Assembly (NCBI GenBank): GCA_014377625.1
Contig: JACMPG010000325.1
Span: 1 to 45,764, forward strand
Length of the DNA: 45,764 nt
Direction of reading: 5' to 3'
From: Spirosoma sp.
GTDB taxonomy: Bacteria > Bacteroidota > Bacteroidia > Cytophagales > Spirosomataceae
This document shows, one piece after another, positions 2,390 through 33,278 of the stretch. A model generated the notes under the pieces. It had not been told where the DNA came from, searched no databases, and worked only from the letters and a program-made list of their open reading frames with translations. The position numbers and the translations under genes are program-made. Position 1 is the first letter of the stretch. Every line of letters starts with the position of its first letter.

Positions 2390-3760
2390 CTATTCAGGGA
2401 TATACCAGAATGGAATCTCCGTGTACGTTTTCGGTTTGCTGGTCGAGTCAGGTATGGTCAGCCGCAGCGTGTTTTTTCCCGTCAATAGATTCCCCGGCAG
2501 CAGGATAGCCGTTAGCCCGCGTTGCTGATTTTCGGTACGTTCGGTAAATAGAAAGTCGGGTTTTCGGTACAGAGAATCATTGATATATACCCCAAAGTAT
2601 TGACTGATTGCATTCAGACGCCACGCGGCCCGGCGTTCGCGTCGCTGTTGCCGCGTAAGGGTATCGGGCCAGACTGGCTCCCTGTTTAGCTTAAGCAGGT
2701 CTTCGTCCAGTTGTTTCGGGTACGCCACAAACAGCCGCAGATACGGCTCCCGGATAACGTCGGCCTGTATAGATGCCAGGTCGGCCAGTTCGGGGGCGGG
2801 GCGCAGGTTGTCATAATCCGCATCGTTCACCACGTACCGGGCTGCGTTCAGACTCATAAACGCCCGGTTGTCGAACACGTCCAATCCTTTAATCCGGCTA
2901 ACGTCTATGAACATCACCACCAGTTCAATCAGGATAAAAAAGATCATAATTACTCCAAATCGCTTATAAAGGGTCTTCCTGGGGACATTGCTGAAGAAGG
3001 TGTAAATAATGTACTGAACAGGTCTGCCAATGCCGGGCATGAGGAGGTAGGGGGCTGTGGATGCCCGAAATACCAGCGGTGCCAGACGCGGATGATCCCG
3101 AAGCGCAGGAATGGCAGCACTCAGCGAGATGAGCATATAGAAGCCGAGTAAGGCCAGTAACACATACCGAAGCACCAGCATTACCGTGCCATATAGATTG
3201 GGTGGCACGTACCACTGCAACAGGGTAGCTACCATAACGAGCAGGACATAACTCAGGGCAACGATAAGAAAGATAATGGCCATGACCGATGCCAGTGCAA
3301 AAATGACGTTGCAGCGTTGGTCAAGCCGGATAATGTAGCCATCCAGCGAACCCAGCCGTTGCGCCTGACGCTCCTGGCCGTATTTGCTCAGCATAGCAAT
3401 CTCGTTGTACCGAATGCCGCCGGGAAACGCAGCCAGCAGACCAACCAGCGATACCCAAAAAGCCCGCATCACAAAGTTGGCCAGAAACGCGCCGAACAGC
3501 ACGTAACAGGCTACTTTACACAAACTCACAATCTGAACCGGCAGTATATCGTGAAAATAAGCTTCATCGGGCATCAGGTTGTAGCGGTAGTAGGTCAGTG
3601 CCTCGTCGAGACTACCGGCCAGACTGAGCGTAGCAAACAGGGCCGCGCCCGAAATGACCAGCTCCAGATTCCAGCTCTGGCTGGTCAGCTCGCGGAGTCT
3701 GGCCCGCTCGTCGGCTAAATCGTGTTGGTCTGCTTCAGGTAACTGGTTTTGCGCGTTCAT
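2390..3760 (-). CDS. Multi-pass membrane protein of unknown function
   Basis: 456 aa. An acidic/basic N-terminal helix (about 1-30) is followed by about six to seven hydrophobic segments between residues 30 and 280 (for example LELVISGAALFATLSLAG, FALASVMAIIFLIVALSYV, FGVIMIFFILIELVVMF). A soluble C-terminal region of about 175 residues ends in a beta-rich part (LTAILLPGNLLTGKNTLRLTIP, IPFWYIPE). I do not recognise the family. It is a single-gene unit: convergent with the Cys-rich gene and divergent from hemW across 121 bp. The reading frame is intact and codon use matches its neighbours. Confidence 0.75.
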   Translation of the reverse strand: MNAQNQLPEADQHDLADERARLRELTSQSWNLELVISGAALFATLSLAGSLDEALTYYRYNLMPDEAYFHDILPVQIVSLCKVACYVLFGAFLANFVMRAFWVSLVGLLAAFPGGIRYNEIAMLSKYGQERQAQRLGSLDGYIIRLDQRCNVIFALASVMAIIFLIVALSYVLLVMVATLLQWYVPPNLYGTVMLVLRYVLLALLGFYMLISLSAAIPALRDHPRLAPLVFRASTAPYLLMPGIGRPVQYIIYTFFSNVPRKTLYKRFGVIMIFFILIELVVMFIDVSRIKGLDVFDNRAFMSLNAARYVVNDADYDNLRPAPELADLASIQADVIREPYLRLFVAYPKQLDEDLLKLNREPVWPDTLTRQQRRERRAAWRLNAISQYFGVYINDSLYRKPDFLFTERTENQQRGLTAILLPGNLLTGKNTLRLTIPDSTSKPKTYTEIPFWYIPE

Positions 3761-28581: not shown

Positions 28582-28998
28582 TTAGCTCACTTTAACGGCA
28601 CCTTTGTTCTCTTCAATGGCATCAGCGGCATCATCGGCCAGCTCATCAACTTTTTTGTTGTAATCAGATTTCATTTGGTTGCCGTCCGCTTTTGCCTGTG
28701 CAACAGCATCCTTCGCTTCGCCTTTGTACTGATTGTACTGGTCTTTAGCCTTGTCAGCGTACTGTTCGTACTGATCTTTGGCTTTGTCGGCGTACTGACT
28801 CACCTGTGATTTGGCCTGCTCAAAGCCTTCTTTTGCCTGTGCAACGCCCTTTTCCCACTGCTCCTTGAGGTCGTCGGTGCGCTTATTGGCTTCTTCGGTC
28901 AGTTTGTCGCGTGTGTCTTTGCCACTACGGGGGGCGGTCAGAATACCAATGGCTACACCAGCCAGAATGCCTGTTAGAAAATCTCTTGTACTTCTCAT
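28582..28998 (-). CDS. YtxH-domain protein with LEA-like helical repeats
   Basis: 138 aa. The N-terminus has the YtxH glycine-rich membrane segment and motif (FLTGILAGVAIGILTAPRSGKDTRDKL). It is followed by a long, highly charged helix with internal repeats: QYADKAKDQYE, QYADKAKDQYN, QYKGEAKDAVA (11-residue period), which resembles group-3 LEA proteins. YtxH proteins are linked to general stress. The repeats suggest an amphipathic, drying- or stress-protective helix, but this is inference. It forms an operon with the YtxH gene 43 nt upstream and ends at the hairpin 28494-28540. Confidence 0.82.
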   Translation of the reverse strand: MRSTRDFLTGILAGVAIGILTAPRSGKDTRDKLTEEANKRTDDLKEQWEKGVAQAKEGFEQAKSQVSQYADKAKDQYEQYADKAKDQYNQYKGEAKDAVAQAKADGNQMKSDYNKKVDELADDAADAIEENKGAVKVS

Positions 28999-29041: not shown

Positions 29042-29302
29042 TTACTTCAGCTTCCGCTTTGCCTGCCCAATTACATCACTGGTCTTGGCTGAAGCAGAAT
29101 CTACGTACTCGTCATACTGCTGTTTGATGGTGTTCAGTCCAGACTGAAGCTGGTCCTGAAGGTCTTTGAAAAAAGACTCTGATTCGGACGATAGCTTTTT
29201 CGAGACTCTTCTACGGGTTTTTTTGCCGCTCTCCGGGGCCAGCATAATACCAACAAGGGCACCAATTGCCAATCCCACTACAATTCCGGGTAATGATTTC
29301 AT
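29042..29302 (-). CDS. YtxH-domain protein (short)
   Basis: 86 aa. A hydrophobic, glycine-rich N-terminal helix (LPGIVVGLAIGALVGIMLAP) leads into ESGKKTRRRVSKKL, the typical YtxH motif, then a charged helix (LQSGLNTIKQQYDEYVDSASAKTSDVIGQAKRKLK in parts). It is a membrane-anchored small stress protein of unknown molecular role. It is the first gene of the two-gene YtxH operon. A promoter-like motif (29345-29361) is centred about 50 nt upstream and matches one before the Lmo0937-type gene. Confidence 0.8.
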   Translation of the reverse strand: MKSLPGIVVGLAIGALVGIMLAPESGKKTRRRVSKKLSSESESFFKDLQDQLQSGLNTIKQQYDEYVDSASAKTSDVIGQAKRKLK

Positions 29303-29344: not shown

Positions 29345-29361
29345 AAGAAAAATCTGTACCA
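29345..29361 (-). promoter_or_regulatory. -24/-12-like promoter motif of the YtxH operon
   Basis: Read on the minus strand the motif is TGGTACAGATTTTTCTT, 43 nt upstream of the first ATG. It is close to the sigma-54 consensus TGGCAC-N5-TTGCT (with T for G in the -12 box) and to TGGCACAGTATTTTCTA at 30928-30944. An NtrC-type activator is encoded nearby. Confidence 0.4.
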
Positions 29362-29515
29362 TGTTTTAGAAAAAATTTTAACTAACTGATAAACAGTAAT
29401 TTATATTGTAAAATTCCCTACCTACACTGGAACGGTGTTGAGGAAGTTTTTCTACAACCGCGTCCAGTATTTACGCGATTGGCAAACAACGCTGCCCGGT
29501 TTGGAATTTACTGGT

Positions 29516-30589
29516 ATGACTTCATCACTCCTCATAGTAACGGGCTGTTCTGTTCTTCTGATTATGGCTTCGTTCGTCCATCTGTTACGTATAGACTACT
29601 GGTGGATACGTATATGGGATTTTCCACATCTACAACTGGGTGTGCTGACGCTGATTTGCCTGGCTGGCTGGATCGCGCTGGGGGTGCCGCTTTCCTGGCC
29701 AATGGCACTGGTACCGGCAGGATTACTGGCAGCGGCCGTTTATCAGAGCTGGCTGATTTTTCCGTACACGGCAGCGCACCCCCGGCAGATGCAGTCGGCT
29801 AAACACCCTCGGTTGAGCAGTCGTGATGCCCATCAGTTTCGGCTACTGACCGCCAACGTCTATATGGAAAACACCCGTACCGGGGAACTGCTCGCTCTGG
29901 TTGACGAAAGCGGCCCTGATGTAGTGCTGTTGCTGGAAGCCAATGCATACTGGTACGAAGGCATGAAACCTCTGGAGGTGAACTATCCGTACCAGATTGC
30001 CCACCCACTCGAAAACACATATGGCATACTGATGTATTCCCGGTTGCCGATGCGGGAAGAACAGGTTCGATTCCTGATTGAAGATAATATTCCGTCTATC
30101 AGTGTGCAGTTCCGGTTACCATCTGGTCAGTGGATTCAGTTTTATGGCGTGCATCCGACGCCACCCAGCCCAACTGAAAATTACCGCTCTACCGAACGTG
30201 ACGCTGAACTGTTGGTGGTGGGTAAGGAATGCCGTTTGCAGACACGCCCTACTGTGGTGGCGGGCGATTTGAACGACGTGGCCTGGTCGCACACAACACG
30301 CTTGTTTCAGCGGGTTAGTGGATTGCTCGACCCCCGCATTGGACGGGGGCTGTTCAGTACCTTTCACGCTAAATACCCGTTCCTGCGCTGGCCCCTCGAT
30401 CATGTCTTTGCCTCGACCCACTTTCAGCTGCAAACCCTGAAAAGGATGCCTGGTTTCGGATCAGATCACTTTCCAATTATGGTTACCCTTGTGTGTGAAG
30501 AACGGCCCCAGGGTATTGTAGAAAAGCCTCATCCCGAACACGATGACCTCAAAGAAGCCAGCGAGATCATTGAAAAAGCAGGACAATAG
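29516..30589 (+). CDS. Membrane-anchored endonuclease/exonuclease/phosphatase (EEP) family protein
   Basis: 357 aa from the ATG at 29516; a GTG at 29435 would add 27 hydrophilic residues. Three N-terminal helices (up to about residue 90) precede the EEP domain, with LLTANVYMENTRT, PDVVLLLEAN, FYGVHPTPPSP, VVAGDLNDVAWS, DHVFAS and the final GSDHFPIMV, which contain the family's catalytic Asn, Glu, Asp and His. Such proteins are phosphodiesterases, possibly acting on phospholipids, nucleotides or DNA outside the membrane. The C-terminus is acidic (PEHDDLKEASEIIEKAGQ). It ends at a hairpin shared with the convergent Lmo0937-type gene. Confidence 0.85.
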   Translation: MTSSLLIVTGCSVLLIMASFVHLLRIDYWWIRIWDFPHLQLGVLTLICLAGWIALGVPLSWPMALVPAGLLAAAVYQSWLIFPYTAAHPRQMQSAKHPRLSSRDAHQFRLLTANVYMENTRTGELLALVDESGPDVVLLLEANAYWYEGMKPLEVNYPYQIAHPLENTYGILMYSRLPMREEQVRFLIEDNIPSISVQFRLPSGQWIQFYGVHPTPPSPTENYRSTERDAELLVVGKECRLQTRPTVVAGDLNDVAWSHTTRLFQRVSGLLDPRIGRGLFSTFHAKYPFLRWPLDHVFASTHFQLQTLKRMPGFGSDHFPIMVTLVCEERPQGIVEKPHPEHDDLKEASEIIEKAGQ

Positions 30590-30598
30590 GCAACAAAA

Positions 30599-30628
30599 AA
30601 TCCCTGCGCTCAACTTGGCGCAGGGATT
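30599..30628 (-). terminator. Rho-independent terminator (best on the minus strand)
   Basis: AATCCCTGCGC (30599-30609) pairs with GCGCAGGGATT (30618-30628). On the minus strand the stem is followed directly by a T-run (complement of the As at 30595-30600), a classic terminator for the Lmo0937-type gene. It also lies just after the EEP stop and may serve both strands. Confidence 0.8.
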
Positions 30629-30685
30629 CTATACCCACCGTAACTTGTACTTAACCTAAAAAAAAATATCGTTTCTGTTAGACGG

Positions 30686-30847
30686 TCAGACGCCACGCCC
30701 CTGAATAAGCCGCAATACAATGGCAATGACGGCAATAACCAGCAAGACGTGAATAAGACTGCCCATGCCAAAGCTGTTGAATCCTAAGAAACCAAGTAGC
30801 CAGATAATAACCAGAACTACTGCGATGGTATAAAGAAGGTTGCCCAT
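30686..30847 (-). CDS. Lmo0937-family small membrane protein (53 aa)
   Basis: ATG at 30845-30847 to TGA at 30686-30688 (minus strand) encodes 53 aa: MGNLLYTIAVVLVIIWLLG, then FLGFNSFGMG, then SLIHVLLVIAVIAIVLR and LIQGRGV. Two membrane helices joined by a Gly/Asn/Ser loop match the Lmo0937-type family, which is very common in Bacteroidota and often near other stress genes. The molecular role is unknown. It has its own promoter-like motif (30928-30944) 81 nt upstream and its own terminator (30599-30628). It is easily missed because of its length. Confidence 0.88.
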   Translation of the reverse strand: MGNLLYTIAVVLVIIWLLGFLGFNSFGMGSLIHVLLVIAVIAIVLRLIQGRGV

Positions 30848-30927
30848 GGTAAAGGGGGATTAGTGAAAGTGAAAAGCTTATTTCGTGAGTAAATCAGAGC
30901 CTGTTGTCTCGCAATTGATAATCTCAT

Positions 30928-30944
30928 TAGAAAATACTGTGCCA
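30928..30944 (-). promoter_or_regulatory. -24/-12-like promoter motif of the Lmo0937-type gene
   Basis: On the minus strand it reads TGGCACAGTATTTTCTA: the -24 box TGGCAC is perfect for sigma-54 and the -12 box TTTCT differs from TTGCT by one base. It matches the motif before the YtxH operon at 13 of 17 positions. Confidence 0.45.
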
Positions 30945-31074
30945 ACTCAGAGTGGTAGTTGTGGAAGCCAGAACGAAAGGCCCTACCGACTTGAAAAAGA
31001 GACAATAGTAGCCCTCATGGCTTAAAACCGGCTTTTTTACCAGCAATAGGCGTCTTTTTGAGAATGTAGAAATG

Positions 31075-31103
31075 TTTCCCCGATTGTAGAATAGTCGGGG
31101 AAA
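31075..31103. terminator. Hairpin TTTCCCCGA / TCGGGGAAA in the noncoding gap
   Basis: Nine-bp perfect arms (31075-31083, 31095-31103) with an 11-nt loop; the right arm continues into A bases, giving a T-run on the minus strand. There is no gene just upstream on either strand, so it may block read-through or end a short unannotated RNA. Confidence 0.4.
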
Positions 31104-31357
31104 AAGAACACAGCAGCCCCACATATCTCCTGATGTGTCATAGGTCCTATTTACAGTGCATCAATAATAATACGGCTGGCAACTGACTAATTGGTCAGGT
31201 TTTACTGCTTATTCCCTTAGAAATCAGGTCTGGGATGCATTTTCGGCACCATATTTTATATGTACAGCTAAAACAAAGTACACAAACGACCATGATACTA
31301 TCCGCAGCAAGCGTAGCCTTGGGAAATACTACCGGGCGGACTTATACACCAGCCGTA

Positions 31358-31732
31358 ATGAAAACTACCAGTAATGCCAGGCGAGTCCTGATCGTCGACG
31401 ATGAAACCGACATTTGTTTGCTTCTATCTGGGTTACTGCGTCGGCTGGGATACCAGCCATCCTGTGCGCATTTTATAGAAGAAGGGCGGAAGCTCCTGTC
31501 GTCTCAGCATTTTGACGCTGTATTTCTGGACCTTAACCTGCCAGACGGGCTTGGGTTCGATCTGCTTACTTTAATCAGACAGCAACAGGCCAAAACGAAA
31601 ATTATTATGATCAGTGCCTTTGACGGACAGGCCGAACGGCGTCGGGCTACTGAGGAGGGTGCCGACTATTTCATCGGTAAGCCCTTTACCCGGTTATCCG
31701 TCGAAACAGCTTTGCAAACTATTCAGGTTTAG
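31358..31732 (+). CDS. Single-domain response regulator (receiver only)
   Basis: 124 aa from the ATG at 31358 (MKTTSNARRVLIVDDE); in-frame starts at 31235 and 31292 only add a low-complexity extension. It is a complete receiver: D14-D15 region, phosphoacceptor D58 in FLDLNLPDG, S87 and K108 in GKPF. No output domain follows. It may act as a phosphorelay intermediate or be read by a partner protein. The NtrC-type regulator gene follows after 94 nt, and no kinase is in the window. Confidence 0.85.
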   Translation: MKTTSNARRVLIVDDETDICLLLSGLLRRLGYQPSCAHFIEEGRKLLSSQHFDAVFLDLNLPDGLGFDLLTLIRQQQAKTKIIMISAFDGQAERRRATEEGADYFIGKPFTRLSVETALQTIQV

Positions 31733-31826: not shown

Positions 31827-33278
31827 ATGGAGAAAATACTAATTATTGACGATAACAACGATATATGCCTGTTGCTTGAGCGCTTTCTCAGTAAGCAAGG
31901 GTACCATACGGCGTCGGTGCAACGCGGTGAAGACGGACTGGTTCTCTTAAGAAAAGAAGCATTCGAGTTAGTTATCTGTGATTTCAAACTGCCTGATCTG
32001 GACGGACTGGAGATGTTGCGCCGGATCAAGATCATGCATCCCACAACGGCAGTAATCATCATTACTGGCTACTCAGACGTTCGGATGGCCGTACAGACGG
32101 TTAAGCATGGTGCCTACGATTACGTAACCAAACCGCTGTATCCCGAAGAAATTCTTCATACCGTTAAAAACGCCATTGAACGTCGTAACCAGACGGTCAG
32201 TTCGCCCTCGCAAACACCAGCTGTAGCCAGTTCGCCCAGGGCAAATGCCCTGCGTGCTAAATCAGGCTACTCAACCGATGGCAAACGATTCATATTCGGT
32301 AAAAGCCGGTTTGCCGAGCAGCTCCAGAAACATGTCGATCTGATTGCCCCCACGGATATGTCGGTCATTATTACCGGCGAGACGGGGACGGGGAAAGAGT
32401 TTGTGGCCAACGCCATTCACCTTAAAAGCAAACGCGCCGATAAACCGTTTTTGGCAATCGACTGTGGCGCACTCAGCAAAGATCTGGCGGGCAGTGAATT
32501 GTTTGGACACGTAAAAGGCGCGTTTACCGGAGCTGTGTCTGATAAAGCTGGCAGCTTCGAATTTGCCAATGGAGGTACGCTCTTCCTGGATGAAATCGGC
32601 AACCTGTCGTACGACAATCAGATTAAACTGTTACGGGTGTTGCAGGAGCGAAAAATCCGGCGCATCGGTAGTAATCAGGACGTAGCGGTTGACGTGCGGA
32701 TCATTGTGGCTACCAACGAAGACCTGCGCGAAGCCGTCCGACAGGGGCGTTTTCGGGAGGATATCTACCACCGGATCAACGAATTTGAAATACACCTGTC
32801 GCCCCTGCGTGAGCGTAAGGCCGATATTATGATCTTCGCCGATCATTTTCTTGATCTGGCCAACGCTCAGCTGGAAAAGGAAATTGCCGGATTCAACGAC
32901 GAAAGCCGCGACAAACTGAAAGAGTATTATTGGCATGGTAACCTGCGCGAACTGCAAAACGTAGTAAAACGGGCGGTACTGCTGACATCGGGCGAGTACA
33001 TCGAAGCTGACGTCCTGCCCCAGGAAATTATTAACCCCCAGTACCTAATGCCTGACGATGCACCTGTTCAGGTGTCTTACGATCCGTCCCGCCCCGGTAT
33101 TCCGGTCATGAACCCGTCGGCGGCCAACCTGAAATCAGTATCTGAAAATGCCGAACGGGCCGCTATTCTGAAGGTACTGGAAAAGACAGGTTACAATAAA
33201 ACGAAGGCTGCCGAGGTCCTTAATATTGACCGTAAGACGCTGTACAACAAGTTGAAAGCGTACGATATTCATCTGTAA
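31827..33278 (+). CDS. NtrC-family sigma-54-dependent response regulator
   Basis: 483 aa. Receiver domain 1-about 120 with D52 in VICDFKLPD and K in VTKPLYP. The AAA+ domain (about 150-385) has Walker A GETGTGKE (184-191), the sigma-54 contact loop GAFTGA (231-236), Walker B FLDEIGN and RREDIYHRIN-type arginine-finger region (FREDIYHRINEFEIHLSPLRERK). The Fis-type HTH is at the C-terminus (AILKVLEKTGYNKTKAAEVLNIDRKTLYNKLK in parts). It activates sigma-54 RNA polymerase at distant enhancers. Nearby -24/-12-like motifs before the YtxH and Lmo0937-type genes are candidate targets. Confidence 0.93.
   Translation: MEKILIIDDNNDICLLLERFLSKQGYHTASVQRGEDGLVLLRKEAFELVICDFKLPDLDGLEMLRRIKIMHPTTAVIIITGYSDVRMAVQTVKHGAYDYVTKPLYPEEILHTVKNAIERRNQTVSSPSQTPAVASSPRANALRAKSGYSTDGKRFIFGKSRFAEQLQKHVDLIAPTDMSVIITGETGTGKEFVANAIHLKSKRADKPFLAIDCGALSKDLAGSELFGHVKGAFTGAVSDKAGSFEFANGGTLFLDEIGNLSYDNQIKLLRVLQERKIRRIGSNQDVAVDVRIIVATNEDLREAVRQGRFREDIYHRINEFEIHLSPLRERKADIMIFADHFLDLANAQLEKEIAGFNDESRDKLKEYYWHGNLRELQNVVKRAVLLTSGEYIEADVLPQEIINPQYLMPDDAPVQVSYDPSRPGIPVMNPSAANLKSVSENAERAAILKVLEKTGYNKTKAAEVLNIDRKTLYNKLKAYDIHL

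Follow-up and report, generated by a model that had tools for sequence, protein, structure and literature searches.

NtrC-type activators can work with sigma-54 promoters whose product is an RNA, as in CbrB-CrcZ of Pseudomonas and LuxO-Qrr of Vibrio. Among the Bacteroidota, the sigma-54 promoters read from mapped 5' ends in Flavobacterium psychrophilum SM4 include those of GroES and GrpE, and the assignment of grpE and groES to sigma-54 uses both the mapped 5' ends and the motif (PMC9723704). A second paper states that grpE depends on sigma-54 in two Bacteroidota and groES in one (PMC12316311).

Here we describe a Spirosoma locus in which an NtrC-type activator gene lies beside a pair of promoter-like sites. 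We think it probable, from sequence comparison, that these are two co-activated sigma-54 promoters and that one of them makes an RNA with a likely function of its own. A search of the open-access literature found no paper joining YtxH with sigma54, and the titles among the matches listed held nothing on the promoter pair or the RNA. Spirosoma together with sigma54 appeared only in rotifer-culture work, as judged by title.

The locus and its relatives

The window (the whole stretch of DNA that was analysed, 45,764 nucleotides) contains the following genes, with lmo standing for the Lmo0937-type gene:

28582..28998, minus strand: ytxH2, YtxH-like (domain match)
29042..29302, minus strand: ytxH1, YtxH-like (domain match)
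29435..30589, plus strand: endonuclease/exonuclease/phosphatase gene between ytxH1 and lmo (domain match)
30686..30847, minus strand: lmo, Lmo0937-family small membrane protein (DUF5670), 53 aa (domain/family match)
31358..31732, plus strand: lone single-domain response-regulator receiver (domain match)
31827..33278, plus strand: NtrC-type activator with receiver, AAA+ domain (Sigma54_activat) carrying GAFTGA, and Fis-type HTH

The original prediction had ascribed a GAFTGA motif to the regulator at 31827; the motif is present, and the protein has every part of the NtrC-type architecture (receiver, AAA+ with GAFTGA, Fis-type HTH). The phosphatase gene also occurs in some relatives' loci. By eye, an outer-membrane-type gene lies on the opposite strand downstream of the window's activator, and in some distant relatives a kinase-like gene directly follows the activator.

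Within the genus, 36 genomes were compared (the window genome and 35 congeners). In all 34 fetched congener loci, the receiver and activator genes are present and run divergently to the lmo/ytxH side. Using the activator as a query gave 47 loci in named genomes, and promoters outside the genus were read in 14 of these, from Larkinella, Fibrella, Fibrivirga and Fibrisoma. All 14 carry the receiver and activator in the corresponding position, a similarity search picked out lmo in 13, and 10 have ytxH genes. The lmo homologs of seven further genera were dropped as a source of promoters because they lack the motif: 10 of 10 upstream regions (8 loci) are without motif or palindrome, and the stretches fetched for the same 8 loci showed no activator gene of this kind.

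Two conserved promoter sites

The two main sites are as follows:

30928..30944, minus strand: sigma-54-type promoter of the Lmo0937-type gene/RNA, TGGCACAGTATTTTCTA, conserved in all 35 genus loci and all 14 loci read elsewhere
29345..29361, minus strand: sigma-54-type promoter of ytxH1-ytxH2, TGGTACAGATTTTTCTT, conserved in all 33 genus loci and all 10 loci read elsewhere

Both 17-mers lie on the minus strand where the original prediction placed them, and they are identical at 13 of 17 positions. The pattern TGG[CT]A[CT]N5[TC]TNC matches nothing else on either strand of the 45.8-kb window. Before lmo, GG-N10-TC occurs in 35 of 35 genus loci (34 congeners plus the window), with GG and TC invariant. 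Before ytxH1, it occurs in 33 of 33, i.e., in every genus locus with ytxH1 on the fetched fragment, and the remaining two genus genomes have a matching site before ytxH1 on another contig. A close ytxH1, searched for independently of the motif, is present in 35 of the 36 genus genomes; the one without it is 71% complete and is also without lmo. Outside the genus, GG-N10-TC precedes lmo in 14 of 14 loci and ytxH1 in 10 of 10.

The GG-N10-NC spacing holds at 68 of 68 genus sites and at 24 of 24 sites outside the genus; the search expressions required the GG-N10 spacing and TC, and still no row failed. At lmo, 12 of 17 columns are at least 90% conserved versus 1 of 93 ungapped flanking columns, and at ytxH1 the figures are 11 of 17 versus 2 of 93, with the ungapped comparison making the flank scores somewhat too low. 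On these alignments, the lmo and ytxH1 sites are real and strongly conserved. The predicted departure from consensus at -12 (TTTC instead of TTGC) extends to the whole set, with TC at every lmo and ytxH1 site read. The GC dinucleotide by which sigma-54 promoters are recognised at -12 is absent from these sites.

A third site was thought to be a weaker relative of these two:

31244..31260, plus strand: CGGCACCATATTTTATA, before the receiver gene (conserved; not accepted as sigma-54)

Its conservation is confirmed, but a clear sigma-54 character is not: the -12 C is found in only 2 of the 25 measured rows (of 35), GC or TC in none, and at least 7 of 35 rows have one base fewer in the spacing. 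We therefore do not accept it as a sigma-54 promoter.

A candidate RNA from the lmo promoter

Alignment of the predicted lmo transcript brings out two conserved parts:

30886..30899, minus strand: conserved leader of the lmo transcript, CTGATTTACTCA (alignment)
30595..30661, minus strand: near-invariant RNA element (67 nt) and intrinsic terminator, closing the predicted lmo transcript (alignment)

The element was found in all 49 loci used, and 29 consecutive columns are invariant in 32 aligned copies (of the 49); the window's own copy differs at two positions close to where the conserved stretch ends. The leader CTGATTTACTC is present in 40 of the 49. The predicted transcript closes with TTTTAGGTTAAGTACAAGTTACGGTGGGTACGG and then the terminator, 278-366 bases downstream of the -24 T. 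In the terminator and the short stem before it, 99.7% of pair cells are kept, versus 25.6-61.2% paired in slid versions of the pairing. Thirteen two-sided changes fall in three terminator pairs (covariation); three of five measures beat all 500 shuffles, and the others were reached by 48 and 244 of the 500. Four single element copies fold 2.9-4.1 standard deviations below their shuffles.

The Lmo0937 frame is intact in 43 of the 49 loci. It is missing or broken in G017, G021, G024, G028, G030 and Larkinella soli, where the promoter and element are kept and, in five of the six, the leader as well. Parsimony on the activator tree, some branches of which are weakly supported, gives four changes for this loss. 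The promoter and the near-invariant element outlive the frame, and the conserved product of the lmo promoter may be RNA.

No conserved internal promoter was seen in the alignment between the lmo frame and the element. Rfam scans returned no family, the single match being at chance level and on the opposite strand (E 0.48, 16.6 bits versus a gathering score of 100), and a search of 72 loci for further copies of the element found none that was convincing (best E 0.026, terminator-like). At positions 3211 and 3359 of locus L196, a 15-base match to the element's complement lies 148 bp before TGGCACAGTTTTTACT, which may be chance.

The best-surviving alternative is that sigma-54 promoters with a weak -12 element make an ordinary mRNA, whose 3' element is a terminator plus a stability or processing signal with no trans function. 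This would suit a 3' element of which a terminator is clearly part, a frame that most loci retain, and an RNA target search that gave nothing above control (21 matches versus 31 in the control, over 354 locus stretches). However, 29 invariant, mostly unpaired bases across several genera exceed what a terminator needs, and the element and promoter stay in place through the four parsimony changes that cost the frame. We hold an ordinary mRNA to be rather unlikely, and prefer a regulatory role for the RNA. The RNA may nevertheless work solely in cis or through mRNA stability.

Sigma factor and putative activator site

Five bases between TGGYAY and TTTCT are too few for sigma-70, and this spacing fits only sigma-54. 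A single rpoN was found in 35 of the 36 genus genomes. The window genome's RpoN aligns over its length with sigma-54 chains of known structure, and the RpoN box ARRTVAKYRE is present in every one of the 15 proteins read, of which 3 belong to the genus and 12 to the family or order. One genome of the same family and another genus (G036) carries two rpoN genes.

Within the genus, the canonical motif TGGCACRNNNNTTGCW shows no enrichment (108 matches versus 109 in the control), so there is no strong independent set of sigma-54 promoters with which to calibrate the reading. The grpE and groES sites, which in this analysis rest on sequence, serve as comparators. For grpE, 30 loci were used, of 34 genomes with a match: the first -12 position of the sigma-54-like site is G in all 30, the dinucleotide is GC in 27, and one of the 30 is without the second G of -24. 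Upstream of groES, TGGCAYAnAATTGGC occurs in five of the six loci searched (L207, L212, L216, L221 and L230). Since these comparators keep G, the T at the first -12 position marks lmo and ytxH1, and the replacement of G by T before the -12 C looks to have been kept by selection there.

Other features of these regions can be recorded here. The grpE loci (L239-L268) conserve TTTTGGCCGGnCTTTTGC (GG-N10-GC), with a palindrome-like TGTCAAnTTGnCAG just upstream, and some groES upstream regions have TGTCAG and TTTGACAG repeats nearby. The neighbourhoods of other sigma-54 activators, taken as a possible calibration set (31 loci, 27 of which fall in five orthologous groups), contained four scattered matches and lacked a conserved -24/-12 site.

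Upstream of both main promoters lie further conserved sequences:

31065..31091, minus strand: lmo upstream palindrome, putative activator site (alignment of 35 loci)
30990..31001, minus strand: conserved block CTCATTTnCAAG between palindrome and promoter, reading CTCTTTTTCAAG in the window (genus alignment)
29439..29456, minus strand: ytxH1 upstream half-palindrome plus TCCTCA (pattern match 29350-29456)

In the 35 aligned lmo regions, the palindrome has the consensus TTCTACA-n2-TGTnGAA-n5-TCnACA and lies roughly 140 bp before the -24 box. Its second half, taken strictly, is found in 20 of 35 lmo regions (ending 119-133 bp before the -24 box) and in 25 of 33 ytxH1 regions (ending 65-78 bp before it). 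Outside the genus, the full palindrome occurs in 8 of 14 lmo and 8 of 10 ytxH1 regions. One half of the window's lmo palindrome is degenerate, and the window therefore misses the strict lmo pattern; its ytxH1 half-palindrome overlaps the start of the listed phosphatase frame. The block at 30990-31001 is perhaps a DNA-bending site or a site for a second factor.

Palindrome and promoter were also searched for together. The composite ytxH1-type pattern consists of the half-palindrome, TYCWCA, 60-90 bases and TGGYAYRNNNTT, and it occurs at 24 places in 23 of the 36 genomes and nowhere in the control; of these places, 21 are at ytxH1 and three precede distant ytxH paralogs. With 106-136 bases instead, it occurs at 15 places in 15 genomes, every one at lmo (control 0). 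The palindrome-plus-promoter total is thus 39 matches in 36 genomes with none in the control, and the strict patterns still miss many genomes, with 21 of 36 matching at ytxH1 and 15 of 36 at lmo. Where the main sites read TC, the promoters of the three paralogs read AA, AC or AT; despite a -12 of TTAA, TTAC or TTAT, these ytxH paralogs would extend the regulon. We regard the shared upstream palindrome as enhancer-like and as a putative activator site.

A sigma-70-family promoter (housekeeping or ECF), or classical repressor or activator operators with sigma-54 uninvolved, would agree with lmo and ytxH1 sites that all lack the -12 G and with the unenriched canonical motif. On established knowledge, however, the five-base gap is too short for it, the consensus shows no conserved TAnnTTTG downstream, and a GAFTGA activator is a fixed neighbour of promoters whose palindromes lie well upstream in the manner of enhancers. 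We judge it improbable and keep sigma-54 as the preferred reading. Slightly less probable again is that the RNA is a cis-acting attenuator of read-through from lmo into ytxH1-ytxH2, as the element's position between lmo and ytxH1 and its union with a terminator might suggest, but lmo and ytxH1 are separated by an opposite-strand gene both in the window and in several relatives, and ytxH1 is preceded by a promoter and palindrome of its own.

Extent of the regulon

The original prediction proposed a genome search for the motif upstream of stress genes. In the window's own genome, the motif gave 10 matches versus 7 in the control, which is hardly an enrichment. Across the genus, allowing one mismatch gave 127 versus 113, and a looser pattern gave 164 versus 88 in the control among the matches listed, an excess of about two per genome. 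Seven of 14 places examined elsewhere (of 16 motif matches) lie inside a frame of at least 100 aa on either strand. The worry that the motif is as common inside genes as before them is thus borne out elsewhere, where matches are chance-like, but not at lmo and ytxH1. As the motif alone stays near control levels, we reject a broad stress regulon.

The sequence comparisons give good support to a local sigma-54/NtrC regulon of very small size. The predicted form of it, run by the 31827 regulator, agrees with the spacing, the presence of rpoN, the fixed neighbouring activator and the shared palindrome, and is the best-supported reading. We infer that both promoters depend on rpoN and on this regulator.

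Proposed mechanism

The proposed sequence of events is as follows. A signal would lead to phosphorylation of the NtrC-type activator, which, though encoded divergently, would bind the palindrome shared by the regions upstream of the lmo and ytxH1 promoters. The activator would then remodel sigma-54 polymerase, opening both promoters together, each through a selected, non-consensus -12 element with T for G before C. From the lmo promoter would come an RNA, roughly 325 nt long in the window, with the near-invariant element and terminator at its end. This RNA would be a message and probably also a regulator, most likely a regulatory small RNA or a 3'-UTR-derived RNA in which the 53-residue frame is optional. 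Transcription, its start and length, its dependence on sigma-54 and the activator, and the RNA's function are all points that we infer from sequence.

More tentatively, and with somewhat less than even confidence, the lmo RNA may found a new regulatory-RNA family, activated by sigma-54 and a dedicated NtrC-type protein, with the Lmo0937 frame as a dispensable passenger and the -12 T under selection. The locus matters for several reasons. In Bacteroidota, it links an NtrC-type activator to a compact predicted sigma-54 regulon whose stress-type genes have been little studied, its conserved -12 exception could test how sigma-54 reads the -12 element, and it offers a strongly conserved candidate RNA that has no Rfam match and whose likely activator is encoded next door.

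Comparison with known systems

The locus resembles sigma-54/NtrC-type systems in its GG-N10-NC spacing, TGGYA -24 box, upstream palindromes and adjoining GAFTGA activator. Unlike usual sigma-54 promoters, those of lmo and ytxH1 have T rather than G before the -12 C, and unlike usual sigma-54/NtrC systems, the putative regulon is very small and made up of DUF5670 and YtxH-type genes. Flavobacterium psychrophilum SM4 likewise combines membership of the Bacteroidota with stress-linked sigma-54 promoters, there read from mapped 5' ends, whereas YtxH and DUF5670 are absent from the main text of that report (PMC9723704).

With regard to the RNA, the closest parallels are CbrB-CrcZ and LuxO-Qrr, which share with this locus an NtrC-type activator and a promoter of sigma-54 type, here predicted to make a candidate RNA. 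The sequence comparison with their RNAs consisted of the Rfam scans. Unlike in CbrB-CrcZ and LuxO-Qrr, the candidate RNA described here includes an intact frame for a small protein in 43 of the 49 loci.
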